From Pseudomonadota bacterium (GTDB taxonomy: Bacteria; CALINM01): a stretch of 41,685 bases of DNA. The DNA is taken from positions 1 to 41,685 of the forward strand of contig JAOAGA010000004.1 in NCBI GenBank assembly GCA_026415985.1, written 5' to 3'. The position numbers and the translations under genes were made by a program. Under the pieces are notes generated by a model. That model made no database searches. It worked only from the letters and a program-made list of their open reading frames with translations, and was not told the DNA's origin. Shown one piece after another: positions 3,324 to 18,567 of this stretch; positions within the stretch are counted from its first letter, which is position 1; the number at the start of each line of letters is the position of its first letter.

Positions 3324-3634
3324 AAGCCGATGAATCCCGGAAGCAGTAAATAAAAAACTTCTTCTCCACAGGTGAAATCCATCACCAAACCTTTATCTGC
3401 CATCCTGTCAAGTATTGGTTTTAGTTCCTTTTCAGGGATTTTGCTATAAGATGATATTTCATTTATAGTAGCTTCCGTAAGAGGAAACTTAGACGCCACA
3501 TACGCCTCTTTTTCATCAAAAATCAAAGAAAGTATCTCTCTTAGCTTTTCGTTATCATATAAACCTATAGGATATTTATTCAGTCTATCAATCAAAGGAA
3601 TAAGAACTTCTTTAGAAAGTGATAAATGCCCCAT
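3305..3634 (-). CDS. N-terminal part of the split 4Fe-4S protein
   Basis: 109 residues with a helical, winged-helix-like region (about 25-95) and no cysteine cluster of its own. It ends PGFIGLWNLLL just after the point where the family continues in the other frame. The ATG overlaps the upstream stop as TAATG, and AGGA lies about 8 bases before it, so translation of this start looks genuine. The last four residues are probably out-of-frame read-through. Together with the following frame it would make a protein of about 390 residues. No slippery heptamer for programmed -1 frameshifting is visible near 3318-3330. An alternative is a natural split with translation restart at the ATG 19 bases before this stop. 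Confidence 0.7.
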   Translation of the reverse strand: MGHLSLSKEVLIPLIDRLNKYPIGLYDNEKLREILSLIFDEKEAYVASKFPLTEATINEISSYSKIPEKELKPILDRMADKGLVMDFTCGEEVFYLLLPGFIGLWNLLL

Positions 3635-4185
3635 TATTTTTGTCCTAACATTCCTTTTTTTAACTCTTCATCAACTGGTTTGTTACCAATATAGATAGAC
3701 AAAAGTCCAAAGGCAAGTCTGTTAGATTTTATAATCCCTAAGACCTTATTGTTGTGTTTTGTAATTACTGTCCCATCTGACAATAATACAAGTTCTAACG
3801 TATCTCCCACATTAAAGTCTGAATTAAATTGAGAAAAAAACTTTTTACCAGCCTCTGACTCCGGTATGTCTGGAGCAATGCTCTGAAAAGCTTCTTTAAT
3901 TGTATCGGTTACCTTATTCTTTTCAACTTTATGCAAAAAATCAAGCCTGATGACCTTATCTGAACCATCAGAAACAGCCTCGTCATAGTTTGTAACCTTT
4001 TTTGTTGTATATAGTGATGCAACATAAACCTTGACAAACCATTTTTTTCTGATGCCATAGCCATTTAATTTTAATTGATTGTTGTTTAAGGTAATTGTTT
4101 CCGATATATTAACACCTGAGACATTTAACCCATAAAGAGGTACTGATATGACTAATAATAAAAAAATTAAAAATATATTTTTCAT
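3634..4185 (-). CDS. Chalcone isomerase-like secreted protein
   Basis: 183 residues with a clear signal peptide (MKNIFLIFLLLVISVPLYG) and the family motif NGYGIRKKWFVKVYVASLY at about 41-59, typical of the bacterial chalcone isomerase-like domain (Chalcone_3 type). These bacterial proteins are exported, and their role is mostly unknown; fatty-acid or small-molecule binding has been suggested for the fold, and true flavonoid isomerase activity is not expected. Its stop overlaps the start of the ferredoxin N-terminal frame by one base (TAATG), so those genes share a transcript. A strong terminator separates it from fadL upstream, so it should have its own promoter in or near the 67-base gap. 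Confidence 0.75.
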   Translation of the reverse strand: MKNIFLIFLLLVISVPLYGLNVSGVNISETITLNNNQLKLNGYGIRKKWFVKVYVASLYTTKKVTNYDEAVSDGSDKVIRLDFLHKVEKNKVTDTIKEAFQSIAPDIPESEAGKKFFSQFNSDFNVGDTLELVLLSDGTVITKHNNKVLGIIKSNRLAFGLLSIYIGNKPVDEELKKGMLGQK

Positions 4186-4252: not shown

Positions 4253-5584
4253 TTAAAAATTATAATTTAGCTGTGCACTGAGGATTTTAACGTTACAATC
4301 ATAGGTGCCTTTTAAATTACCCCTCGTTGCGTTTTCATTAGTTGTTGTTGCTACCTGATTAATTTTGGGATCATTTACAAAAAGATACGCAGCGCCCAAA
4401 TCTAATGAAACTTTATCTGAAAACTTGTAACCAAGGCCGGCAGATATCCATTTTCTGCTTCCATCGGGTATCCTTGGAGTTCTGTATTCAGGGCTTGTTA
4501 CAGGCGTCTCATCATAGGCAATACCAAATCTGTAAGTCCTTTTGTCTGTTGCATAGTAGCTTAATCCCAAAGAGTAGCGGTAATTATCATCCCAGTTTTC
4601 AGTTGTCAAGATGTCAGAAGCACCATTACTACTCTTAACTCGAAGCTCTTTGAATCTGCTCCACTTTGTCCAACTTACATCTGCCATTACCGCCAACTTA
4701 GGTGTAATTTTTGAATAAAAAGAAGCAGAAGCGGTATCAGGAAGATCAACATCTGCAGTAACAGACCGGTTTTGTAAATTCAGATTTGATGCCAATAAGG
4801 GATGAACATTACTAAACTTTACATCGCCTTTCAAAGATTGCTGAACTCTTGAACGATAGGACAAACCAAAACGAGTATCCTTAGAGAACTCATAAAGTAA
4901 TCCTGCGTTATAGCCATATCCCCATGCATCTCCTTCCAATGAAGAATAGGCATCCGTTGCCACTGACCAAACACCTACGGGAGCTCCATTTGAAGCCAAA
5001 ATAAGTTTCTGATCTACAGCACTTGAAAGCTCTGCCTTAATATATTGAGCACTAACACCAAACCCAAAACTCAATTTGTCTGTAATTCTATAGGCAAAGG
5101 AAGGATTGATATTAATTGTCATCATGTCCGATTTTATAGCATGATACCTCCCAATCCAATCACTGGGATACTCTGTCCCAAGCCCAAAGGGAACATTTAT
5201 ACCTAATCCAAAGGCTGATTTATCTGACAATTTTCTCAAATAATAAATATTCGGAACAAACTTACTAACACCACCATCTCCACCATTATTCGAACCAAGA
5301 GAGCCGATTAAAGGATTTATACGAGAAGAGCCTTCATCATGAAATTTTGCACTGGGAGAGATGAAATGAATTCCTGCTATAAACTGATTATTTAATCTTG
5401 TCATTCCTGCTGGGTTAAAAAATATTGTTGTAGCATCTTCGGCAGAGGCAGAACCACCTGCATAGGCATTGCCCAATCCACTGACACTTTGTTCAATCAA
5501 CTGAAAGCCTGCACCATACACACTTCCATAACTCAGTATTAGAATGGTAAATACAGCCCAGAGCTTAAACCGCAACTTCTTCAT
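4253..5584 (-). CDS. FadL/OmpP1-family outer-membrane channel
   Basis: 443 residues. A signal peptide ends near VYG-AGF, and the mature N-terminus AGFQLIEQSVSGLGNAYAGG with the NPAGM motif is diagnostic of the FadL/OmpP1/TodX family. Alternating hydrophobic strands and a C-terminal phenylalanine (QLNYNF) fit a 14-strand outer-membrane barrel. The family takes up long-chain fatty acids or other hydrophobic compounds; the substrate here is unknown. GGAGG precedes the ATG by a short spacer. It has its own terminator downstream and sits 194 bases from the glutamate synthase gene, so it is likely a single-gene unit. I did not find a convincing promoter in that gap, although it is very AT-rich. Confidence 0.9.
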   Translation of the reverse strand: MKKLRFKLWAVFTILILSYGSVYGAGFQLIEQSVSGLGNAYAGGSASAEDATTIFFNPAGMTRLNNQFIAGIHFISPSAKFHDEGSSRINPLIGSLGSNNGGDGGVSKFVPNIYYLRKLSDKSAFGLGINVPFGLGTEYPSDWIGRYHAIKSDMMTININPSFAYRITDKLSFGFGVSAQYIKAELSSAVDQKLILASNGAPVGVWSVATDAYSSLEGDAWGYGYNAGLLYEFSKDTRFGLSYRSRVQQSLKGDVKFSNVHPLLASNLNLQNRSVTADVDLPDTASASFYSKITPKLAVMADVSWTKWSRFKELRVKSSNGASDILTTENWDDNYRYSLGLSYYATDKRTYRFGIAYDETPVTSPEYRTPRIPDGSRKWISAGLGYKFSDKVSLDLGAAYLFVNDPKINQVATTTNENATRGNLKGTYDCNVKILSAQLNYNF

Positions 5585-7596: not shown

Positions 7597-7624
7597 AGAA
7601 TAAATTAAAACAAGTCTATGTCAA
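7597..7624 (-). promoter_or_regulatory. Candidate sigma-70 promoter for the glutamate synthase gene
   Basis: On the minus strand: TTGACA (7624-7619), 16-base spacer, TATTCT (7602-7597). The -35 is perfect and the -10 matches 4 of 6. The predicted start near 7590 gives a leader of about 170 bases. Confidence 0.45.
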
Positions 7625-7986
7625 GGCGTTTTTAAAATATTCAGTAGCTCCAAGGCATCTTTTGCCAGTGCAGAGTTTGGATATTTGATTAAGAATGTCT
7701 CCACTTCTTTCCTCACTTCTTCCTTTTCGCCTTTTTCGAGTTTATCAATCAAGCTTCTGAATGTTTCTAACTCGTCTTTTTTGACACTATCCTTGCCATA
7801 CCAAAAAAGTTCTTCTCCCTTCTCATCTTCTGCACCTCTGACACCTGCTATAGCGGTTGTCTCTTTAATATCGGAGACTTTAAACTTAGATATCCTTTCC
7901 TTGATTGTCTGAATTCTCTTGTCTCTCTCCTGACCATAAACTGATAGTGGCAAGATAAGAAACAAAATCAAAAAGAGACGATTCAT
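7621..7986 (-). CDS. Small secreted protein, last gene of the CsgG-like operon
   Basis: 121 residues: a signal peptide (MNRLFLILFLILPLSVYG), a charged middle, and a helical C-terminus that resembles one TPR-like hairpin (about 75-118: KEEVRKEVETFLIKYPNSAL). I do not recognise a named family. It starts 9 bases after the 1452-residue gene, so it is the third member of that operon. CsgG-DUF4810-DUF799 lipoprotein gene trios in Proteobacteria also include a small helical protein. The parallel in gene number and size is suggestive, but I see no clear sequence match to DUF4810. Confidence 0.65.
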   Translation of the reverse strand: MNRLFLILFLILPLSVYGQERDKRIQTIKERISKFKVSDIKETTAIAGVRGAEDEKGEELFWYGKDSVKKDELETFRSLIDKLEKGEKEEVRKEVETFLIKYPNSALAKDALELLNILKTP

Positions 7987-7995
7987 AAAGACCTC

Positions 7996-10900
7996 CTAAA
8001 AAACTTTAAGAAATGGTGCCAATTTTTCCAGTTTTAATTTATAAGTCTGATATTCATCTTCTTTTTTCATAATTTTAAGAGTTTTTAATATATTTATAAG
8101 AACCAAAATATTCTTCTCGTCCAGATCATAGGCCTTTTTGTAATGTCTGAGAGCCTCTTTATAATCCTTTTTGATAAAATAGAGGTTACCGATATCATTA
8201 ACAAAACCTGAACTCATTATATTTTTTCTCAAAAGAAACTGAGACAAGTCTAAAGCATCATCCAGTGAGCTGTTTTTATAGAGAAAATATATAGATTTTT
8301 CCGGCTCTATTTTTCCTGAGGTAATAAGGGTTAAGATCTCCTCGTTTCTCAACTGACCCAGCTCTGAGATAAAATTGTTTAAATTACTTTCAAAACCTGA
8401 CGGTAAATCTACACTCATTTTTAGTTCCAGGAGTGTGGGAGGTTTGTAAACCTCCCAAGATTTTTTTATACTTATGAACTTGATATTGTTGTTTTGATTA
8501 TCAATTACATTTTTTATACCCCTCTTCCAGGCATTAAAAAAATTATCATTAAGTAAAGTCAGCTCCACGGGTATCCATACAGAATTTTCATATATGACTA
8601 TATCTTTTTCCTTAATGCCAGACCTTTCAATATCATCAGGAGAGATACCGCTGTCAAACATAAGAAGTATATGACCGGGGTAATCGATGGCAATTGTACT
8701 TATACCTAAACTTTCAGCGATTGCAGAGTAAAGACTAACCAAATCATCACAATCGCCCGTCTTTCTTTTTATAGTCTCTCTTGGAAACTGAACATAATCA
8801 ATCTGATCTTCCTTTTCGGATACCACATTATAAGGATTATTCGGGTCTCTCTGATAGGTTATTCCTATGGCTCTCATAGCTTCAAAAATTGCCATACCAT
8901 AGGTAATATTTGTATTAACTACCTTCTTTTTTATATTTCTTACTATATTTCTTGAAAAATCAACAACTACCGGATCCTTAGGCGTGATAAATATGGCAAT
9001 TTTTCTTCTGTCTGACCAGGTCAATGCATGTTTTTCCATAACGGTTACTGGATGGGTTACGTTTATCTCCTTTTCTTCTCCAGATTTGAAATATTTTGCC
9101 TTAATATCAACCTGTATGGTAGAGCTCTCTGTTAACTCAAGAAGTTTGTTATTAAAAACACCTTCAACATCTACCTTTAATGTTTCTAATGGTGCCAGCC
9201 TTTCGATCTCTTTTTGAGTAGGAAAATCCATATACTCTTTCATCATGACCTGGATTTTTAATTTCTCAAAATCTTTGGAAGTATTGTTGGTAATAGCTAT
9301 TTTTAAAAAAGGTGACTTTTCATAGCTCTTATAATTATTTGCGAAAATCTGTTCTGCTTTAATAACCTTTATCTCAAGGGGTGATAAGAATTTCTCCGCA
9401 TAAAATAATTTTTTAATCTTTTTTCTATTCTCATCCTGAGATAAAACCTTTTCCAAAGATTTCAACTCTCTCTCAAAAGCCTCCCAAAGATTCTGAAACG
9501 AGTTTTTCAGAGCTAACTCCTTACCATCTTCTTCATTCATATGATAGATAGTAGCACCCTTTGAAAAACTAAAAAGAGGTTTTTTAAGATAGGAATCAAA
9601 GGCAGAAATATCCAAAGAAGAGTTAAAGGTCTTAAGATTTCCTCCCACAAGACTCTGACTGACTCTAACTTTCTCTTGTATCATAACGATAATATCAGCC
9701 TGTTTATCTACTGCTTGATCATAATAATTTGAGGGGTCACACTGTCCTATACCAAAATCTTCTATAGGATAGTTTAAGGGAGACAGGTTTTTTATAAGTA
9801 ATCTTTTTGAATACCCCATCCCACTGCAATCTAAGATAGCGATCTTTATCTCCTTATCCTTGCCTCCGAGAAGACCAACTTCTCTTAAATCGGCCAGCAA
9901 AAGCTCCCTATTGATAAAGGCCATAAAGAAACCATCAAACATTATATCAGTAATATTAGTGCTTATCGGAATGACCAAGGGAACATAATTTGAAAATTTT
10001 GGCATGATCTTCTCATTTACTATATTTATCTTATCACGTGTCATATCACCAATTAATGTTTCCACAAATGTTTTTACTGCTCTCCATTTAGCTCTCGTTG
10101 CCGAGACCTTATCTATATCATCCTTTTCTTTTATAAGAGAGAGCTTTACATCAGTAAAGGTCACAACATACTTCTGATCTTTTCCACTACCTCTCAAATC
10201 ATAGGATTTTTCAAAAAACTCTTTTCCTTTTAGGTTTTTGGAGCTTAATATGTTTTTTAGATTTTCTTCATTTTTTAGCTGATATGACAGGAAGTAAGCT
10301 ACATCAAGAAGATTTTCATACTCTTCATACCAGATTGACTGTATCTTTTTTAAGGTCTCGTAAGAATCCAAAAATCTATTTTTTAATAAATTTTCAGCGA
10401 GTTCTCTTTTAAGCTCCATTAATGTAAGCTCTTTTAGCTCCTCTATGTTTTTCGCAAAAGGAATTACCATCTTTATTTTGGGAGTCCCCTTTACCTTTTT
10501 TAAAAAATCGAGTTCTTTTCTCTCGTAAGTTTCTACTTCATCAATGTAAACATTGCCTTCTGCCTCAATTAAGTTTTCATTTCCCATTAAAATCAGCTTT
10601 TCACCACTGATTCTTACCTCCCCTTTCAATATCAGTGCAGTCTTTTTGCTATCTACCTTTGTTTCTTTAACAGTTAAATTAGAGCTGTTTAAATATATGC
10701 CAGAGTTATAAGAAGATATATTGACCTTTGTAAAGTTAACAAAAGACTTCCTGTCTGCCCTAAGAAACACATCAAAGTTTGATATTTCAGAGTTTGAGAT
10801 CAGAGAGGTGGAGTTTGATAAAATAATTTCTTTACCATTCTCAAAAATCCCGAAATCTATTACAAATGCACCTTCTCCTGCATCTTTAATCTCTATGATA

Positions 10901-12354
10901 TAATCGCTACCTTTAAAGGCAATTCTGCCATCCTTCTTTCCCTTGCCAATAATTTTTCCCATTGATACCAGTTTACTGTTTTTCCTGAACTCTATCACCA
11001 CGCCATCTTCTATTTCCAAAGTAACATCCTTTAGGATATTGACTTCACCATCTACTATATAAGGACTGCCTGCACTGAATAATGTTGTATTCTCTTTTAT
11101 CTTAGCAGGTAGAGCAGTAGGTCCCCTTTTAACAGCAGTAATTATTTTTTCTTCATACTTACTTAAGTTTTTTGCCCTGTCACGGGCATAAACTCTATAA
11201 AAGTACTTTTTTCCATAATCGATATTTTTATCTATAAACTCTGTAATTGACGTCGAACCAATTTCAACAAAATTAGGATTGTCCACCCCACCTCTCATTA
11301 CAACAAAATCCTTTAAATCATCGTCAGCAGGCGATTTCCAGTTAATCAGGATACCATCAGATACTGAAACAAGCTTCAAGTCCTTTACCGGACCAGGGGG
11401 GATTGTGTCTACAGTGACGGAATGAGGAACTATATAATTACTCTCCGTTTTTTCTTTTTGATTATACAAAAAGGCTGTTATAATCTGGTTTTTAAACAGA
11501 TCGCCTTCTTTAACGACATATTTACCAAGATACTCCCCAGGCTTTACCTCTGTGAGCTCAACTGCCTTTCTCTCATTTCCAATATTAAAATAGGCTGTCA
11601 AACCCTCTTGGGCACTTACAGAAACGAGTATCTCATCCTGTGCCTTGAAAGGACCATCAAGGGCATTTGTTATTACTGAATATATCTGAGGAGGTTTCTT
11701 GGCTTTAAGGGTTTTTGGCTCCGGTATTTCTTTAGCCAAATTTCTACAAAGTTTATCTGTCAAGGCAATCTTAACGCTTTCTCTTAATACAAGGGCAGAT
11801 GTTACCGCCGTTGATATGGCACCCCAGGGAGAGGTTGGTAAACCTCCGGATCTTTCCGTAACAGAGTCTTCTTTCTCCCAGATTATTTCTCCGTTTTCAG
11901 AAGATACAAGTTTAACCTTAAGCCTCAGAGTAAGACTTGCATAGAGAGCTGCATAGATCTTTTCTATGCCTAATATCTCAATATATATGAGCCCTTCAAC
12001 GTTAAGAATCTCTCCAAGCTCCTTAGGGGTTAATCTATCCCATTTCTTGCCTTTCTCTTTTTCTATAAGGTATAACTTGCTGTCAACATCATTGAGTTTT
12101 GATATATCATAGTTTTTATAACTTATATGATTGTAAAAGGTTGTTCTTATCTCCTTCTTATCCTCTTCTTCACCCTCTCCCGTTGCAGGTAAAACCGCTA
12201 TATTCTTTGGCAGTTTTTTTTCCTTTTTAAAGAGCCCGCTCCCAAGCTCAACAGCGCTATCTTTTATATCCTTCAGTTTTTCCAGAGGATCAAATGAATA
12301 AACATTCCCCGCAAGTATAAAGAAAATAAAAAGGGACAAAAAAAATCTAATCAT
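7996..12354 (-). CDS. Giant periplasmic multidomain protein (DUF799-like, FN3, beta-helix, transglutaminase-like, TPR)
   Basis: 1452 residues with a Sec signal peptide (to about residue 20) and no lipobox. Domains by eye: 48-215 resembles the DUF799/GNA1162 lipoprotein fold (KNIAVLPATGEG; the later part reads SSENGEIIWEKEDS); 225-312 Ig-like; 318-408 fibronectin type III (starts PPGPVKDLKL, ends KKYFYRVYARD); 426-608 right-handed beta-helix-like repeats; about 700-1010 resembles FlgT/LPP20-type periplasmic modules (KIAILDCSGMGYS, ADIIVMIQEK); about 1150-1290 transglutaminase-like (C1202 in TGDCDDL, H1228 in YPGHILLMF, acid possibly E1264 in WIPVELT); 1385-1450 TPR. It begins 3 bases after the CsgG-like lipoprotein gene, so the two are made together. 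A role in envelope assembly or surface structure is inferred. Domain boundaries are approximate, and the 700-1010 assignment is weak. Confidence 0.7.
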   Translation of the reverse strand: MIRFFLSLFIFFILAGNVYSFDPLEKLKDIKDSAVELGSGLFKKEKKLPKNIAVLPATGEGEEEDKKEIRTTFYNHISYKNYDISKLNDVDSKLYLIEKEKGKKWDRLTPKELGEILNVEGLIYIEILGIEKIYAALYASLTLRLKVKLVSSENGEIIWEKEDSVTERSGGLPTSPWGAISTAVTSALVLRESVKIALTDKLCRNLAKEIPEPKTLKAKKPPQIYSVITNALDGPFKAQDEILVSVSAQEGLTAYFNIGNERKAVELTEVKPGEYLGKYVVKEGDLFKNQIITAFLYNQKEKTESNYIVPHSVTVDTIPPGPVKDLKLVSVSDGILINWKSPADDDLKDFVVMRGGVDNPNFVEIGSTSITEFIDKNIDYGKKYFYRVYARDRAKNLSKYEEKIITAVKRGPTALPAKIKENTTLFSAGSPYIVDGEVNILKDVTLEIEDGVVIEFRKNSKLVSMGKIIGKGKKDGRIAFKGSDYIIEIKDAGEGAFVIDFGIFENGKEIILSNSTSLISNSEISNFDVFLRADRKSFVNFTKVNISSYNSGIYLNSSNLTVKETKVDSKKTALILKGEVRISGEKLILMGNENLIEAEGNVYIDEVETYERKELDFLKKVKGTPKIKMVIPFAKNIEELKELTLMELKRELAENLLKNRFLDSYETLKKIQSIWYEEYENLLDVAYFLSYQLKNEENLKNILSSKNLKGKEFFEKSYDLRGSGKDQKYVVTFTDVKLSLIKEKDDIDKVSATRAKWRAVKTFVETLIGDMTRDKINIVNEKIMPKFSNYVPLVIPISTNITDIMFDGFFMAFINRELLLADLREVGLLGGKDKEIKIAILDCSGMGYSKRLLIKNLSPLNYPIEDFGIGQCDPSNYYDQAVDKQADIIVMIQEKVRVSQSLVGGNLKTFNSSLDISAFDSYLKKPLFSFSKGATIYHMNEEDGKELALKNSFQNLWEAFERELKSLEKVLSQDENRKKIKKLFYAEKFLSPLEIKVIKAEQIFANNYKSYEKSPFLKIAITNNTSKDFEKLKIQVMMKEYMDFPTQKEIERLAPLETLKVDVEGVFNNKLLELTESSTIQVDIKAKYFKSGEEKEINVTHPVTVMEKHALTWSDRRKIAIFITPKDPVVVDFSRNIVRNIKKKVVNTNITYGMAIFEAMRAIGITYQRDPNNPYNVVSEKEDQIDYVQFPRETIKRKTGDCDDLVSLYSAIAESLGISTIAIDYPGHILLMFDSGISPDDIERSGIKEKDIVIYENSVWIPVELTLLNDNFFNAWKRGIKNVIDNQNNNIKFISIKKSWEVYKPPTLLELKMSVDLPSGFESNLNNFISELGQLRNEEILTLITSGKIEPEKSIYFLYKNSSLDDALDLSQFLLRKNIMSSGFVNDIGNLYFIKKDYKEALRHYKKAYDLDEKNILVLINILKTLKIMKKEDEYQTYKLKLEKLAPFLKVF

Positions 12355-12357
12355 AAA

Positions 12358-14373
12358 TTACATAGCTGACAGAGCATCAAGATATTTATTTATTTTCTCT
12401 TCGACGGTTTTGGTATCTTTGTTCTTTCTCTTTGACAGTATCAATGAATCGGTAAATCTTTCTATGGCTTCTCTAAGATTTCCGTCCCTTTCAAGTGCTT
12501 CTCCTTCTTTAAATAATCTGTTTTCTGGTTCGGAAAAAATTGCCTTCAACTCTGATGTGATTTTCAAGACCGCATCTTCCTGAGCCTTTTTCATAATTTC
12601 TGCATCAGTTGGTAACTGTGCCATCTTAAAAGGTATCTTAAAATCACCTATATCAACACCTTCACTGCCTTCGTCCTGAACATCCTTTTTGATATCAACC
12701 ATACTTGTATGAATAATTTTTCCCTTTGAAGTATCAACTACTCTATAGCTTATATTTAATATACCAACCTTCTTGTGATAGCTTATTTTATACTTGATAT
12801 CTTCATAGATTGGTTTTTCAATAAGTTTTGGCGGGGAAGGCGGTAAGGGCTTGCCTTCTGCCTGAAGCCTCTTGGCTAAAACAAGCCATTCGTCGTAATC
12901 CGGATTTGACAACATATCAACCTTAGTCTTTACTCTGACAACCTTATAACCTTCCTGAACTGAACTATCTATCTTATAATCAAGAACGTCTCCTAAAAGC
13001 AAGTAGTCAGCACTGGATATCTGAAATCCTGCACCATCTTTTTGAGACTCCTGCCCTTTTCCCGCAACGGTAAGTTCATACTCCCTCAGTAATACATCCA
13101 TAGATTCTCTTTCAATAATTCTCAAATCCTGCTTAAGTTCATTATATAGTGACAGCATTATACTTGAAGTAAAAATATTTCCTGCCTCAGGCGCACTTTT
13201 TGGACTTTTAAAAGGAATAACCGCCAGGCTCTTCAACGCTCTGTTAACAATCTTCTCTTCTACCTTTTTCAGATTTTCTCTTATCTCTGGATAGGAAGGT
13301 GATAAGAGATTTATTAGTTTATAGTAATTATAGGCAATCCCAAAATATCCTATATCTTCTGACTTTTTAGCCTTAATATACAGAGTATCAAAATATTTCT
13401 GCATCTCCTTTTTAGGAATATTTGCCAATCTGCGTTTATCTATTTCTAAAGAGTTAATAATATCGTAGGCCTTTTTAAAGTTATCATAGGCCTGCCTGAA
13501 AAGTTCCTGCTCCATTAACTCGATACCGGTCTGAAAATAAAAATCACTGAGATCTATTTTAGTCTGTAAAATCAGCTTTTCTGCTACATTTTTAGATTCT
13601 CCATAAACCATTGCCTTTTCATAATATCTGAGAGCTTCCTCATACCTTCTTTTTCTTTTGGCATCATCGGCCTTTTTAATAAAGTATTCTGCATTATCCT
13701 TCTGAAGAGCATCTTCATAAATCTTTTTGATATCTTTATAATCGGGATCTAATTTATAAGCCATTTCTATAAGCGGTCTTCCCTCTTTCCAGTTTTCATT
13801 TTCAACATACCTTTGTATCTGCGGATAAATATCCTTTAACCCCTCTTCCTTATATTCCCTGGCAATCCTCTCAAACTCCTCCGAACTTATAAATTTATTG
13901 TTCTGCAAGAAAGAGACCGCATCCAGGTATTTCCTTTCCTGAAAGAGTTTTTTAGCGTTATCAAGAACCTCTTTTCTCTTTTCTTCGGTTAGCCTTCTTT
14001 CGTTAGCTATCTGAGAACTTAAAATTTCTAAATCCTTTGATTTAACCTGATAATTCTCAATGTTTCTTAAATCAGCAGTGAACTGGTCGAGAGTTTTTAT
14101 AGGAATTATGGGATTTTCAGACTTTGCGAGAGAAAGTTTTTGAGACAGGCCCTTTAGTTCCATATCGAAAATTTTGTTTCTGACAACATTGTAGGTATCA
14201 CAATACTCCTTTTCCTGTGGTGCTTTCTGACAAAGATCTTTTAAAACATTATAGGCTTCTCTTATATTATCTCTTTGCATCATTATTTTGGCATTTTCAA
14301 AGCTCTGTCTTAACGGATCTGGAGCACAGGAAAAAAGAAACATGACAAATATTATTAAAAAAAACCTCAACAC
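12358..14373 (-). CDS. TPR lipoprotein with a CsgG-like domain
   Basis: 671 residues (GTG start, GGAGG upstream). The lipobox LFSC at 13-16 marks C16 for lipidation. Residues about 120-370 are TPR-like helical repeats (RRYEEALRYYEKAMVYG). Residues about 374-600 look like a CsgG/FlgT-type domain: KSLAVIPFKSPKSAPEAG, ERESMDVLLREYELTVAG, SSADYLLLGDVLDYK. A final TPR follows (about 620-665). CsgG-family lipoproteins form outer-membrane pores or periplasmic rings; whether this one forms a pore cannot be told, because the domain also carries an insertion (about 490-540). First gene of a three-gene operon (3-base gap to the next), with a candidate promoter 14413-14440. Confidence 0.75.
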   Translation of the reverse strand: MLRFFLIIFVMFLFSCAPDPLRQSFENAKIMMQRDNIREAYNVLKDLCQKAPQEKEYCDTYNVVRNKIFDMELKGLSQKLSLAKSENPIIPIKTLDQFTADLRNIENYQVKSKDLEILSSQIANERRLTEEKRKEVLDNAKKLFQERKYLDAVSFLQNNKFISSEEFERIAREYKEEGLKDIYPQIQRYVENENWKEGRPLIEMAYKLDPDYKDIKKIYEDALQKDNAEYFIKKADDAKRKRRYEEALRYYEKAMVYGESKNVAEKLILQTKIDLSDFYFQTGIELMEQELFRQAYDNFKKAYDIINSLEIDKRRLANIPKKEMQKYFDTLYIKAKKSEDIGYFGIAYNYYKLINLLSPSYPEIRENLKKVEEKIVNRALKSLAVIPFKSPKSAPEAGNIFTSSIMLSLYNELKQDLRIIERESMDVLLREYELTVAGKGQESQKDGAGFQISSADYLLLGDVLDYKIDSSVQEGYKVVRVKTKVDMLSNPDYDEWLVLAKRLQAEGKPLPPSPPKLIEKPIYEDIKYKISYHKKVGILNISYRVVDTSKGKIIHTSMVDIKKDVQDEGSEGVDIGDFKIPFKMAQLPTDAEIMKKAQEDAVLKITSELKAIFSEPENRLFKEGEALERDGNLREAIERFTDSLILSKRKNKDTKTVEEKINKYLDALSAM

Positions 14374-14412
14374 AGGTTCCTCCTTTTTAATATTGTTAAA
14401 ACATCATTTTAT

Positions 14413-14440
14413 AATTTACCTTATAGGTAGAAAAAGTCAA
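14413..14440 (-). promoter_or_regulatory. Candidate promoter of the CsgG-like operon with an embedded palindrome
   Basis: Minus strand: TTGACT (14440-14435), 16-base spacer, TAAATT (14418-14413). A 13-base palindrome, TACCT-TAT-AGGTA (14417-14429), fills the spacer and touches the -10, the position of a repressor operator. The nearest start codon is 40 bases downstream. Confidence 0.4.
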
Positions 14441-14552: not shown

Positions 14553-15323
14553 TTAATAGTTTTTCATTCTTTTTCTAAAGATATACATATAAAATATCAA
14601 AATAATTCCGGTAATTACAAAAAAAATGCTTATCCACTGGGCAGTGGAATACCCTAAATAGACATCACGTAAATCACCCCTTAAAAATTCTATAAAAAAC
14701 CTTATTATCCCGTAACCAATCAGGTATAGTGATAGTAAGACACCTTCTACTTTAATCTTTTTTCTTAGTAAAAATAATATAAAAAATAATGATAGATTAG
14801 AAAAGGCTTCGTACAGCTGTGTTGGATGAAGGGGGATATTTTTTGGGGCCAATGTCAGAGGATTAGTAAATTTTACCGCCCAGGGTAATTCACAGACCTT
14901 TCCATAGCAACAGCCAGCAAAAAAACATCCCAACCTGCCAAAAAAATGAGCGAGAGGTATAAAAACAACAATAATATCAAGACAAGTCAGTATAGGTATC
15001 CTTTCTTTTTTAAAAGAGAAGATAACAAAAGGGATTGCAAACAGCAGTCCACCATGAAAAACAAGCCCCCCTTTCCATATCCGGAAAAATTCCATGGGAT
15101 CTTTTAGAAACTCATCGGGGAAATATATTACATAAAAAACCCTGCTACCTATAATTCCTATCCAGATTGCCCAAAACAGTATATCTATTATTTTCTGGCT
15201 ATCAAGAGCAGATTTCTTACATTCAATCTTTATAAAATAAAGGGCTAATATTATCCCGATGGCAATAAAAAGTCCGTAAGTGTGAACTGCCAGAGATCCG
15301 ATTCTAAATATTTCCGGAAACAT
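14553..15323 (-). CDS. lgt: Prolipoprotein diacylglyceryl transferase
   Basis: 256 residues, polytopic inner-membrane enzyme that transfers diacylglycerol from phosphatidylglycerol to the lipobox cysteine, the first step of lipoprotein maturation. Seen: WKGGLVFHGG (about 83-92), the Lgt signature variant GRLGCFFAGCCYGK (129-142) and HPTQLYE, with about seven hydrophobic segments. The cysteine-containing signature is a known subgroup variant of GRxGNFxN. The ATG directly follows the lspA stop with no gap. Last gene of queC-ileS-lspA-lgt. Confidence 0.95.
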   Translation of the reverse strand: MFPEIFRIGSLAVHTYGLFIAIGIILALYFIKIECKKSALDSQKIIDILFWAIWIGIIGSRVFYVIYFPDEFLKDPMEFFRIWKGGLVFHGGLLFAIPFVIFSFKKERIPILTCLDIIVVFIPLAHFFGRLGCFFAGCCYGKVCELPWAVKFTNPLTLAPKNIPLHPTQLYEAFSNLSLFFILFLLRKKIKVEGVLLSLYLIGYGIIRFFIEFLRGDLRDVYLGYSTAQWISIFFVITGIILIFYMYIFRKRMKNY

Positions 15324-15803
15324 TTACAGTATATGCTCCTTCCTGATAATCTGAAAGAAAAAGATCAGAACTATCCCGATAGTTATAAAGGTGTCAGCAA
15401 TATTGAATACAGGCCAATGAAAACTTTTATAATAAAGTTCAATAAAATCTACCACCGCTCCATAAAATACCCTATCATAAAGATTGCCGATGGCTCCACC
15501 AGCGATGAACCCAAATATAATTGCCCTTTTAACTAAAAATTTTTCTGAAGAATAAAACAGATAAAAAAGCAGACCTATGGCAAGAACCGTAAATATAAGA
15601 ATGATAAGATGTTTTAGATCTCCTCCCCTATGGAGGATGCCAAAGGCAATTCCTTTATTCTCCACAAAGGTTAAATTAAGAAAGGGAAACACCTTGAGCA
15701 CCTGGCCGGGGAGAAATATTTTTTTTATTATATGTTTGCTAATTTGGTCAGCAAAAAAGACCAGAAATATGGTAATAAAAAACAAAGAGTTTCTTTTAAC
15801 CAC
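15324..15803 (-). CDS. lspA: Lipoprotein signal peptidase II
   Basis: 159 residues with four membrane segments; an aspartic protease that cleaves lipidated prolipoproteins. Catalytic aspartates are D119 (VVDFI) and D137 (NIADTF), supported by ADQISK (18-23), NKGIAFG (49-55) and GGAIGNLYDR (102-111). It starts with GTG inside the last codons of ileS (8-base overlap), so it is translationally coupled; the ileS-lspA order is common in bacteria. Its substrates probably include the lipoproteins encoded elsewhere in this window. Confidence 0.95.
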   Translation of the reverse strand: MVKRNSLFFITIFLVFFADQISKHIIKKIFLPGQVLKVFPFLNLTFVENKGIAFGILHRGGDLKHLIILIFTVLAIGLLFYLFYSSEKFLVKRAIIFGFIAGGAIGNLYDRVFYGAVVDFIELYYKSFHWPVFNIADTFITIGIVLIFFFQIIRKEHIL

Positions 15804-18567
15804 TTACAACATCCCTGCATCTCTTGCAGATAGTTGGATGAGATGAATCTTCCCCAACGGTGGTATCAAATACCCAGCATCTTTCGCATTTTTTTCCATC
15901 TGCATTAAATATATCAATGCTTATACCGCTTAACTCTCCTTTATAGTATCCTTTCCCATCAAATTTTATCTCAATCTGAGAGAGTATGAAAATTTCCCTT
16001 AGTTCTTCAAAATATTGCGATATTACATCTCTAATTTCATCAGATATATAAAGTATTACTTTTGCATCGAGAGAATGACCTATAATCTTGCGTCTTCTGG
16101 CATCTTCCAGAGCCTTTTGAACATCTTCTCTTACCAATAGAAGACTGTTAAATGTTTTTTCAATATCATCATTTTCAAAAAATTTGGGAAGCTCACAGAA
16201 ACATTCTAAAAGAATGGAGTCTTTTTTATTGTTTAAATTAAAATGTTCCCAAACCTCATCGCAGGTAAAAGAAAGTATTGGAGAAAGTAAAAGAGCAAGA
16301 GTTTTTGTTATCTCAAAAACAACAGTCTGAGAGGCGCGCCTCTTTTTATCATCAGGTGACAGCACATACATTCTGTCTTTTAAAATGTCAAGGTATATTG
16401 AACTCAAATCCTTTACGCAAAAATTGTGAATACTATGAAAAACCGTATGAAACTCATAATTTTGATAGGCCTTTCTGACCTTTTTGTCAAGTCTGTAGAG
16501 ACGATTAAGAACTGCCTTATCAAGATAGGAAAGCTCATCGTAGGAGATATAATTTTTATTGCTATCAAAGTCAGCAAGAACTCCTAACATATATTTAAAA
16601 GTATTCCTGACTCTTCTGTAAGAATCTACCAGTCTTTCCAGTATTTCCTGTGATATCCTTATATCTTCCCTGTAATCTTCAGATGCCACCCATATTCTTA
16701 GTATTTCAGCACCGTATTTTGATATGATATCCTGAGGTGATATAACATTACCAAGAGATTTTGACATCTTTCTACCTTCTGCATCTACTACAAATCCATG
16801 TGTCAATACAGATTTGTAAGGTGCTCTCTTATAGGCAAGACAGCTTGCAAGTAGGGAGCTATGAAACCATCCCCTGTGCTGATCCGAACCTTCCAGATAC
16901 ATATCAACAGGATGTTCATAGCCATATTTACTCTTAAGGTATGAAAAGCTAACACCTGAATCAAACCAAACATCTAAAATGTCTTCTTCCTTTTCAAAAT
17001 CCTTACCACCACATTTGGGACATTTATAGTCACCAAGAAAAAAATCAGCTGTTTTCTCAAACCATATATCAGCCCCTTCTTTTTCGAACAAATCAGCTAC
17101 CTTTTCTATTAATTTAGTATCAAGGATATATTCATCACAACTTTTACAGTGAAAAGCAATAATTGGAACGCCCCAAGACCTTTGTCTTGATATACACCAA
17201 TCGGGCCTTCCCTCTATCATATTGTATATTCTGTCTCTACCCCACGAAGGTATCCATTTTACTTTATCTATCTCAGAAAGGGCTATCTTTCTTAGAGATG
17301 TTTTATCCATTGAAACAAACCATTGTTCTTCTGCCCTGAATATAACTGGTTCTTTACATCTCCAGCAGTGAGGATAGGAATGGGTTATACTCTGGGAAGC
17401 TATGAGCTTTCCTAACTCCTTCAGCTTTTTAATTATCTCTTCATTTGCAGAAAAGACCTTCATTCCACCGAAGTATTTAACGCTCTTATGAAATTTTCCT
17501 TCCTGATCTACAGGGGCATAGACCTCAATATTATGTTTCAAACCAAGTTCATAGTCTTCCTGACCATGTCCCGGTGCGATATGGACACACCCTGTCCCTG
17601 TATCAAGGGTAACAAAATCAGCGGTTAAAACTATCGAATCAACATCTTCAAAAGGATGCTGACATAATAAACCTTTAAGATTTTCTCCTTTAGTTTCAGT
17701 GATAATTTTAATTTTTTCTGGAAGAATTTCTGTGAATTTTTCAAGTAAATCCTTAGCTATTATAAAAACTTCCTTTGTGGATGTTTCTATAAAAACATAA
17801 TCGTAATCGGGGTGAACCGCAATGGCCCTGTTTGCAGGCAATGTCCACGGTGTAGTTGTCCATATTATTATGCTAACCTCTTTACCCTTTAGACTATTTG
17901 AAAAATTTGATATATCTGATTTAACCGGAAATTTAACATAAACAGACGGTGAGGTATGGTCATCATACTCTACCTCTGCCTCAGCAAGAGCGGTATTGCA
18001 GGATATACACCAGTAAACAGGCTTTTTGCTTCTATAAACCGCCCCTTCCTTTACAAAATTTGCAAACTCTCTTACTATATTTGCCTGATAGTCATAAGCC
18101 ATCGTTATATAAGGATTATCCCAATCACCTATTACCCCAAGTCTCTCAAACTCATCTGACTGAATCTTAACGTATTTTTTGGCATATTCTCTGCAAAACT
18201 TTCTTATTTCTAACTTTGTAACCTCTTTTTTATTTTTTCCGATGCTTTTTTCTGCCTGTAATTCAATGGGAAGTCCATGACAATCCCAACCGGGAATATA
18301 GGGAGTATCATATCCCTCCTTAAAAAAGTATTTAACTACTATATCCTTAAGAATTTTATTTACAGAATGTCCTATATGTATATTGCCATTGGCATAGGGA
18401 GGGCCGTCATGAAGATGAAAGAGCCTTTTCCCCTTTCTTTCTTCTCTCATCTTATTGTAAATATCCAATTTCTTCCATTTTTTCAGTCTTTCTGGCTCAT
18501 TTTGCGTAAGGTTAGCTTTCATTGGAAAGCTTGTTACCGGAAGATTAAGAGTTGATTTGTAATCCAT
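15796..18567 (-). CDS. ileS: Isoleucyl-tRNA synthetase
   Basis: 923 residues, the usual bacterial class I length. Charges tRNA-Ile with isoleucine. HIGH motif at 64-67 (GNIHIGH), KMSKS at 600-604, the editing (CP1) region between them, and a C-terminal zinc site C894/C897/C914/C917 (CERC...CKRC). The ATG overlaps the queC stop by one base (TAATG) and the gene end overlaps lspA by 8 bases. No T-box leader is present, as expected for a downstream operon gene. Confidence 0.97.
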   Translation of the reverse strand: MDYKSTLNLPVTSFPMKANLTQNEPERLKKWKKLDIYNKMREERKGKRLFHLHDGPPYANGNIHIGHSVNKILKDIVVKYFFKEGYDTPYIPGWDCHGLPIELQAEKSIGKNKKEVTKLEIRKFCREYAKKYVKIQSDEFERLGVIGDWDNPYITMAYDYQANIVREFANFVKEGAVYRSKKPVYWCISCNTALAEAEVEYDDHTSPSVYVKFPVKSDISNFSNSLKGKEVSIIIWTTTPWTLPANRAIAVHPDYDYVFIETSTKEVFIIAKDLLEKFTEILPEKIKIITETKGENLKGLLCQHPFEDVDSIVLTADFVTLDTGTGCVHIAPGHGQEDYELGLKHNIEVYAPVDQEGKFHKSVKYFGGMKVFSANEEIIKKLKELGKLIASQSITHSYPHCWRCKEPVIFRAEEQWFVSMDKTSLRKIALSEIDKVKWIPSWGRDRIYNMIEGRPDWCISRQRSWGVPIIAFHCKSCDEYILDTKLIEKVADLFEKEGADIWFEKTADFFLGDYKCPKCGGKDFEKEEDILDVWFDSGVSFSYLKSKYGYEHPVDMYLEGSDQHRGWFHSSLLASCLAYKRAPYKSVLTHGFVVDAEGRKMSKSLGNVISPQDIISKYGAEILRIWVASEDYREDIRISQEILERLVDSYRRVRNTFKYMLGVLADFDSNKNYISYDELSYLDKAVLNRLYRLDKKVRKAYQNYEFHTVFHSIHNFCVKDLSSIYLDILKDRMYVLSPDDKKRRASQTVVFEITKTLALLLSPILSFTCDEVWEHFNLNNKKDSILLECFCELPKFFENDDIEKTFNSLLLVREDVQKALEDARRRKIIGHSLDAKVILYISDEIRDVISQYFEELREIFILSQIEIKFDGKGYYKGELSGISIDIFNADGKKCERCWVFDTTVGEDSSHPTICKRCRDVVSG

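Follow-up and report, generated by a model that had tools for sequence, protein, structure and literature searches.

Three adjacent minus-strand genes, here termed A, B and C, encode a set of envelope proteins that is real, conserved and, as far as searches of the open literature show, undescribed as a unit. They lie in a 41,685-nucleotide stretch of a Pseudomonadota genome (contig JAOAGA010000004.1, positions 1 to 41,685; hereafter the window). Their domain make-up, conserved order, fusion relations and gene linkage show a secreted scaffold protein, B, in which a CsgG partner (GNA1162-like, Ig, FN3, beta-helix and FlgT-like domains) is combined with a transglutaminase-like module genomically linked to CHASE2 receptors. 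Our preferred reading, a tentative one, is that the trio forms one complex for envelope sensing or remodelling, with the transglutaminase-like enzyme carried on a CsgG/FlgT-type assembly. The trio is assembled from known domain kinds and so does not amount to a wholly new category. The original prediction had proposed an undescribed secretion or surface-assembly system; an undescribed envelope system is what we find, but nothing in it is specific to secretion, and the strongest neighbourhood signal, seen among relatives, is CHASE2.

A conserved locus headed by a CsgG-like lipoprotein

Re-reading of the open reading frames returned exactly the predicted extent of the trio, 7621-14373, with gaps of 3 bases between A and B and 9 bases between B and C. 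Gene A starts with GTG, preceded by AAGGAGG. Along the minus strand the order is ileS, lspA, lgt, a 179-bp gap and then A, B and C, which places the first three genes (14553-18567) directly upstream of a lipoprotein trio; this adjacency is probably coincidental, since the neighbours of the trio differ in two distant genomes that carry it. Elsewhere in the window, a FadL-type outer membrane transporter (4253-5584) is followed by a chalcone-isomerase-like protein (3634-4185), and a 751-aa protein (108-2363) combines a [FeFe]-hydrogenase large-subunit-like domain (PF02906) with a sigma-54 activator domain and is possibly a redox or hydrogen-sensing regulator.

Table 1. Features of the trio and its upstream gap (window coordinates; residue ranges refer to the encoded protein)
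Feature	Position	Strand	Description
Promoter-like site	14411..14440	-	Weak match to consensus only, between lgt and A
Gene A	12358..14373	-	671-aa lipoprotein; CsgG-like domain preceded by TPR-like helices and followed by C-terminal helices
A lipobox cysteine C16	14326..14328	-	LFS/C16; invariant among 5 aligned homologues
A CsgG-like domain, ~377-640	12454..13245	-	PF03783 match and predicted fold; two predicted strands >30 residues
Gene B	7996..12354	-	1452-aa secreted multidomain protein; predicted signal peptide
B GNA1162/DUF799-like domain, ~46-215	11710..12219	-	Best conserved part, up to 76% identity
B Ig-like (~218-310) and FN3 (~312-405) domains	11140..11703	-	Profile/homologue evidence
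B beta-helix-like region, ~410-585	10600..11127	-	NosD PF05048 in an aligned homologue
B FlgT-like N domain and second CsgG/GNA1162-type fold, ~728-970	9445..10173	-	Foldseek; homologues
B Ig-like and transglutaminase-like module (TGB), ~990-1285	8500..9387	-	Catalytic-type residues C1202, H1228, E1264
Codon of putative catalytic cysteine C1202 (GDCDD)	8749..8751	-	Invariant in 15 aligned sequences
B C-terminal TPR, ~1350-1430	8065..8307	-	Profile search
Gene C	7621..7986	-	121-aa secreted mini-FecR/TPR protein
C AGVRGAE motif, 47-53	7828..7848	-	FecR-type signature

Protein A bears out its designation as a TPR-CsgG lipoprotein: besides the lipobox, it matches PF03783 (CsgG) above the curated cut-off (E = 1.5e-8, 34.7 bits against 20.8) and gives weak TPR matches in a profile search. 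An AlphaFold model built from a five-sequence alignment (mean pLDDT 86) comprises a long helical repeat region and then a domain with strands of 31 and 33 residues. Foldseek matched this model to the CsgG structures 4uv2, 4uv3 and 6l7a (probability 1.00, E ~3e-5); the low TM-scores reflect the use of a 671-aa multidomain chain as query. A sequence match to solved CsgG chains was not found, even with a profile search. A CsgG-type secretion channel is a nonameric pore to which each protomer contributes two transmembrane beta hairpins. In the model of A, one long hairpin is predicted, its tip replaced by a helical insert (residues 491-505), and the other hairpin falls short of its CsgG counterpart in length; given both features, we treat pore formation by A as a possibility.

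These properties bear on the idea that the trio is a secretion or surface-assembly apparatus, with A as a CsgG-like outer-membrane pore, B as a periplasmic adaptor plus processing enzyme and C as an accessory protein. The CsgG domain and fold, the two long predicted strands at the position of the CsgG membrane hairpin and the analogy with CsgG-containing lipoprotein sets speak for it. Like the curli exporter CsgG, A has the domain fold and a long beta hairpin, but its hairpin tip is altered, it has no sequence match to the solved exporter chains, no curli genes were recognised and the trio has no neighbouring gene for a candidate secreted substrate. CsgG-type folds occur also in the non-pore proteins FlgT, GNA1162 and HpaA. 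We consider an exporter unlikely.

The trio recurs beyond the window. Complete A-B-C sets are found in genomes G388 and G391, of a distant class, where B has 1440 and 1442 residues and C has 126; identities to the window proteins are 47-48% for A, 37-39% for B and 36-43% for C. A contig from a named deltaproteobacterium (JACRET010000058.1, locus L180) repeats the A-B-C order with a B that is shorter and comprises the FlgT-like part, the module and the TPR; the E values are 8e-114 for A, 5e-115 for B (745-1424) and 1.5e-18 for C. Flanking genes in all three differ from those of the window. The order is thus kept in G388, G391 and L180, and both the CsgG/DUF799 similarity and the order conservation on which the original prediction was staked were found.

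Partial loci are also present. A search for A homologues that covered one class of 48 genomes, taken with L180, gave proteins 29-48% identical to A in G250, G388, G390, G391, G400, G401, G404 and L180. The locus in G390 is cut by a contig end. In two related genomes, G401 (B split into two open reading frames; L234) and G402 (A and B both split; L236), the broken frames suggest decay or assembly frameshifts. G404 encodes A and a B that has lost its catalytic residues (GDYDS, no His), G250 encodes A and a 955-aa B that ends before the transglutaminase module, and G400 encodes A alone; the enzyme part is therefore dispensable in some lineages. A single-protein pattern scan of named genomes returned no B homologues, with patterns drawn from unconserved stretches.

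Gene B unites a CsgG/FlgT-type scaffold with a transglutaminase-like module

By inspection, B and C have signal peptides, neither with a lipobox. The N-terminal domain of B had been called DUF799-like. B itself scores below the cut-off for PF05643 (DUF799 = GNA1162-like; E = 0.03, 14.2 bits against 25.9), whereas homologues of its N terminus match significantly (E = 0.0019 and 9e-6), a close homologue in G250 reaches 25.8 bits and more distant L038 proteins pass the cut-off (E = 1e-13 to 1e-14), the better-scoring of these aligning with B at E ~1e-26. By sequence, then, the B N terminus is related to the GNA1162/DUF799 family without being a formal member, and the earlier assignment stands for the relationship but not for the formal threshold. 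Two sister genomes encode separate 770- and 796-aa proteins that align with the N-terminal half of B over ~600 residues (E ~1e-60). In one such homologue GNA1162-like, FN3 and NosD-type beta-helix domains are recognised, and NosD (PF05048) is matched at E = 1.6e-7 in L034:1072-3462, which aligns with B; the predicted Ig/FN3 and beta-helix parts are borne out.

A FlgT-like part had also been predicted, and FlgT (PDB 3w1e, E = 2e-7) is the top Foldseek match of the B middle, followed by GNA1162 (4hrv, E = 4e-5) and CsgG, with a model whose first 195 residues are of low confidence. Homologues of this part occur in G250, G388, G391, G401, G402, G404 and L180. One alternative holds that the trio is a structural ring or wall-anchoring complex, akin to FlgT, FlgO or LpoB, which lends stability to the envelope, or to a motility or wall machine, sends no signal and uses its transglutaminase fold mainly for binding. 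The flagellar LPHT ring appears with FlgT at the top of the B middle fold matches, related lipoproteins give LpoB/FlgT-type matches, and the loss of catalytic residues in G404 fits a non-enzymatic part. B shares the FlgT-like tandem fold of the FlgT/FlgO/FlgP ring proteins, and FlgT_N proteins adjoin CsgG lipoproteins at sister-genome and G250 loci. Yet no flagellar context was seen for the trio (the scan of window genes recognised no flagellar ones), its FlgT-like part is fused to unrelated domains, the Cys-His-Glu set described below is invariant in 15 aligned sequences, and the repeated linkage of the module to CHASE2 genes with varied outputs is left unexplained. We consider a purely structural ring improbable.

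For the C-terminal part of B, transglutaminase Pfam profiles (PF01841/PF04473) fall below threshold in B itself (E = 0.009-0.03, 15-16 bits against 20.5-23) and score above cut-off in relatives, while Foldseek matched human transglutaminases, including transglutaminase 3. Across the 15 aligned sequences of the family built here, G-D-C-x-D, H and W-x-P-x-E-x-T are invariant. Judged from alignment and model, B holds a predicted Cys-His-Asp/Glu set (C1202, H1228, E1264) within a transglutaminase fold; together with the C-terminal TPR match, this substantiates the transglutaminase-like and TPR parts that had been proposed. The module is present in 63 of 386 diverse genomes, with ~27-30 strong loci.

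An intact catalytic set in the module would also suit protein cross-linking or adhesin processing, in which the transglutaminase-like domain matures or releases a surface protein in the manner of LapG and C serves as inhibitor or activator. Among solved sequences, the module profile touches only 4fgo, a periplasmic protein that we take to be LapG; at E = 0.6 this similarity is not significant. No adhesin gene was recognised nearby, and adhesin processing does not by itself explain the CHASE2 linkage. We regard this as the least probable of the readings considered, and very unlikely.

The Ig-transglutaminase unit also has a counterpart elsewhere: residues 1018-1233 of B match residues 14-235 of the 1903-aa ProA model (NCBIfam NF058533; E = 4e-10, 37.7 bits, far below the cut-off of 1500), which by sequence suggests that the unit is also used in a phage-defence protein. 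The likeness is confined to this segment, the rest of the model is unmatched and PADLOC gave no match to the trio, so an anti-phage function through ProA is not supported; a literature search for anti-phage ProA found no paper. One candidate source of the B module, a separate transglutaminase of genome G001 (L035:852-2534, PF01841 E = 6e-29), showed no relation to it on direct comparison; the evidence for fusion therefore rests on other genomes. Other arrangements of the module were seen. L037:8399-14331 encodes a barrel-transglutaminase-TPR protein and, immediately after it, a 1143-aa protein that combines WD40-type repeats with a caspase domain (Peptidase_C14); CHASE2 is absent from the stretch examined there. 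At L125:4214-11837, the module gene and a C-like gene are followed by an AlbA_2/Schlafen, NB-ARC and TPR protein in place of CHASE2.

Gene C and the linkage to CHASE2 receptors

The third gene had been described as encoding a small secreted helical protein. C is not featureless: it has an AGVRGAE motif and then a TPR-like end. Directly downstream of module genes, 25 of 54 small genes carry an AGVRG-type motif, compared with 9 of 611 other small open reading frames at the same loci, related loci being counted separately in both figures. Some members have diverged motifs (AVAGAKAAE and AVAGVKAEE in G388 and G391). In G057, the gene that immediately follows the module gene encodes a 164-aa protein that is 29% identical to C and carries the motif, and longer C relatives in the equivalent position at L127, L125 and L209 retain a FecR-type beta region before it; among these, PF04773 (FecR) is matched only in L127, below cut-off (E = 0.015). 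C itself gives no PF04773 match above the cut-off and is without the N-terminal beta part. From the motif enrichment and the longer FecR-bearing relatives, C is best read as a reduced FecR/TPR protein, derived from the FecR family rather than a member of it. A profile search found no DUF4810 match in C, and the FecR-type motif and TPR end replace its reading as a DUF4810 counterpart or an orphan helical protein. FoxR cleaves itself at a Gly-Thr site (PMC11637429); a similar site in C was rejected on comparison with its RG-A, at a position aligned by inference, as C has no threonine there.

Relatives of the module are repeatedly found beside CHASE2 genes. A CHASE2 gene lies near 12 of 31 module loci; from 278 CHASE2 matches in 280 genomes, chance predicts ~0.2 such loci, rising to 0.7 if pessimistic assumptions are made (P no greater than ~2e-12). 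The remaining 19 loci show no CHASE2 in the stretch examined, some being cut by contig ends. A frequent order is transglutaminase module, C-like gene and CHASE2 gene. The outputs of the linked CHASE2 proteins are adenylate/guanylate cyclase, sigma-54 activator, histidine kinase (HisKA) and SpoIIE phosphatase domains; because they vary, the shared element is the sensor side. Among the 280 genomes scanned, CHASE2 is encoded in all 15 of the other strong-module genomes, against 144 of 280 overall. We also collected 79 named loci from KSB1, Latescibacterota, Gemmatimonadota, Spirochaetota, Proteobacteria, Bacteroidota and others. CHASE2 occurs in 35 of 78, commonly as module, C-like gene and CHASE2-cyclase, a count that illustrates the order and is not an independent frequency because the query was built largely from CHASE2-linked members.

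The scaffold side shows a CHASE2 association of its own. In the sister genome G001, one cluster contains a FecR-TPR gene, a CHASE2-cyclase, a homologue of the N-terminal half of B, Crp, a FlgT_N protein, a CsgG lipoprotein and an SLH-domain lipoprotein, and continues with further genes including a different transglutaminase; the other sister genome, G002, has the same cluster as far as the FlgT_N gene, which is truncated where the contig ends. G250 carries a separate cluster of adjacent CsgG lipoprotein, FlgT_N protein and CHASE2 cyclase, and in G404 FecR, lipoprotein and CHASE2-HD genes stand in a row. Within the G250 class, phylogeny at family level confounds the presence of CHASE2 in A-positive genomes. 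Separate data thus connect CHASE2 with the CsgG/FlgT/GNA1162 side and with the transglutaminase side, and B combines the two sides. Neither a CHASE2 gene nor a full FecR gene is adjacent to the trio in the window, G388 or G391.

Known relatives and a model for the complex

CsgG-DUF4810-DUF799 (GNA1162) lipoprotein sets are known gene sets, and the original prediction had drawn a parallel with them. The trio shares their CsgG-domain lipoprotein adjoining a GNA1162-like protein, and this part of the parallel holds; GNA1162-like genes at L039 and L046 likewise adjoin other lipoprotein genes. The parallel is incomplete because C is FecR-type and DUF4810 is absent. Moreover, A has a long TPR region, and B continues from its GNA1162 part into fused Ig, FN3, beta-helix, FlgT-like, transglutaminase-like and TPR domains.

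A second likeness is to FecR/CHASE2 operons. PMC5192318 describes Burkholderia BiofilmReg, an operon of a FecR/LysM protein and a CHASE2 kinase in which a strain with a disrupted response regulator formed no biofilm, and PMC4439547 describes an MtxA gene followed by a CHASE2 cyclase gene in Magnetospirillum and magnetotactic bacteria. In these accounts a FecR-type or TPR-bearing secreted protein accompanies CHASE2, which is the setting of the relatives of the B module and C; the trio differs in having no adjoining CHASE2, and the portions available to us describe no transglutaminase module or CsgG/DUF799 part. A literature search for work joining CHASE2 and transglutaminase found no paper. The signal of CHASE2 receptors is stated in PMC5192318 to be unknown.

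In our preferred reading, A would assemble with the pair of CsgG/FlgT-type domains in B into a ring or platform at the periplasmic side of the outer membrane. The transglutaminase-like domain may be a cysteine peptidase or amide-bond enzyme with a periplasmic or wall-linked target, and C its regulator or substrate, so that the complex would report or repair the state of the envelope. In relatives, output would pass to the adjacent CHASE2 receptor (cyclase, sigma-54 activator, kinase or phosphatase). A bolder version is possible, though doubtful: that the trio and its relatives make up an undescribed class of envelope-sensing machine across many phyla, in which a FecR-type small protein gates the action of a transglutaminase-like enzyme on a CsgG/GNA1162/FlgT-type outer-membrane platform, and that action in turn generates the CHASE2 signal or gates it.

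CHASE2 receptors with unrelated outputs hereby gain a recurrent gene partner, a catalytic-looking transglutaminase-TPR protein with a FecR-type small protein, and in one lineage a physical fusion connects that partner with a CsgG/GNA1162/FlgT-type envelope assembly. What CHASE2 senses thus becomes a testable question. In the window genome, output might go to a single unlinked CHASE2 cyclase, or the receptor link might have been lost: this genome (G000, 84% complete) has a single detected CHASE2 cyclase, which is unlinked to the trio, adjoins a nitroreductase and resembles the solo cyclase of G001.
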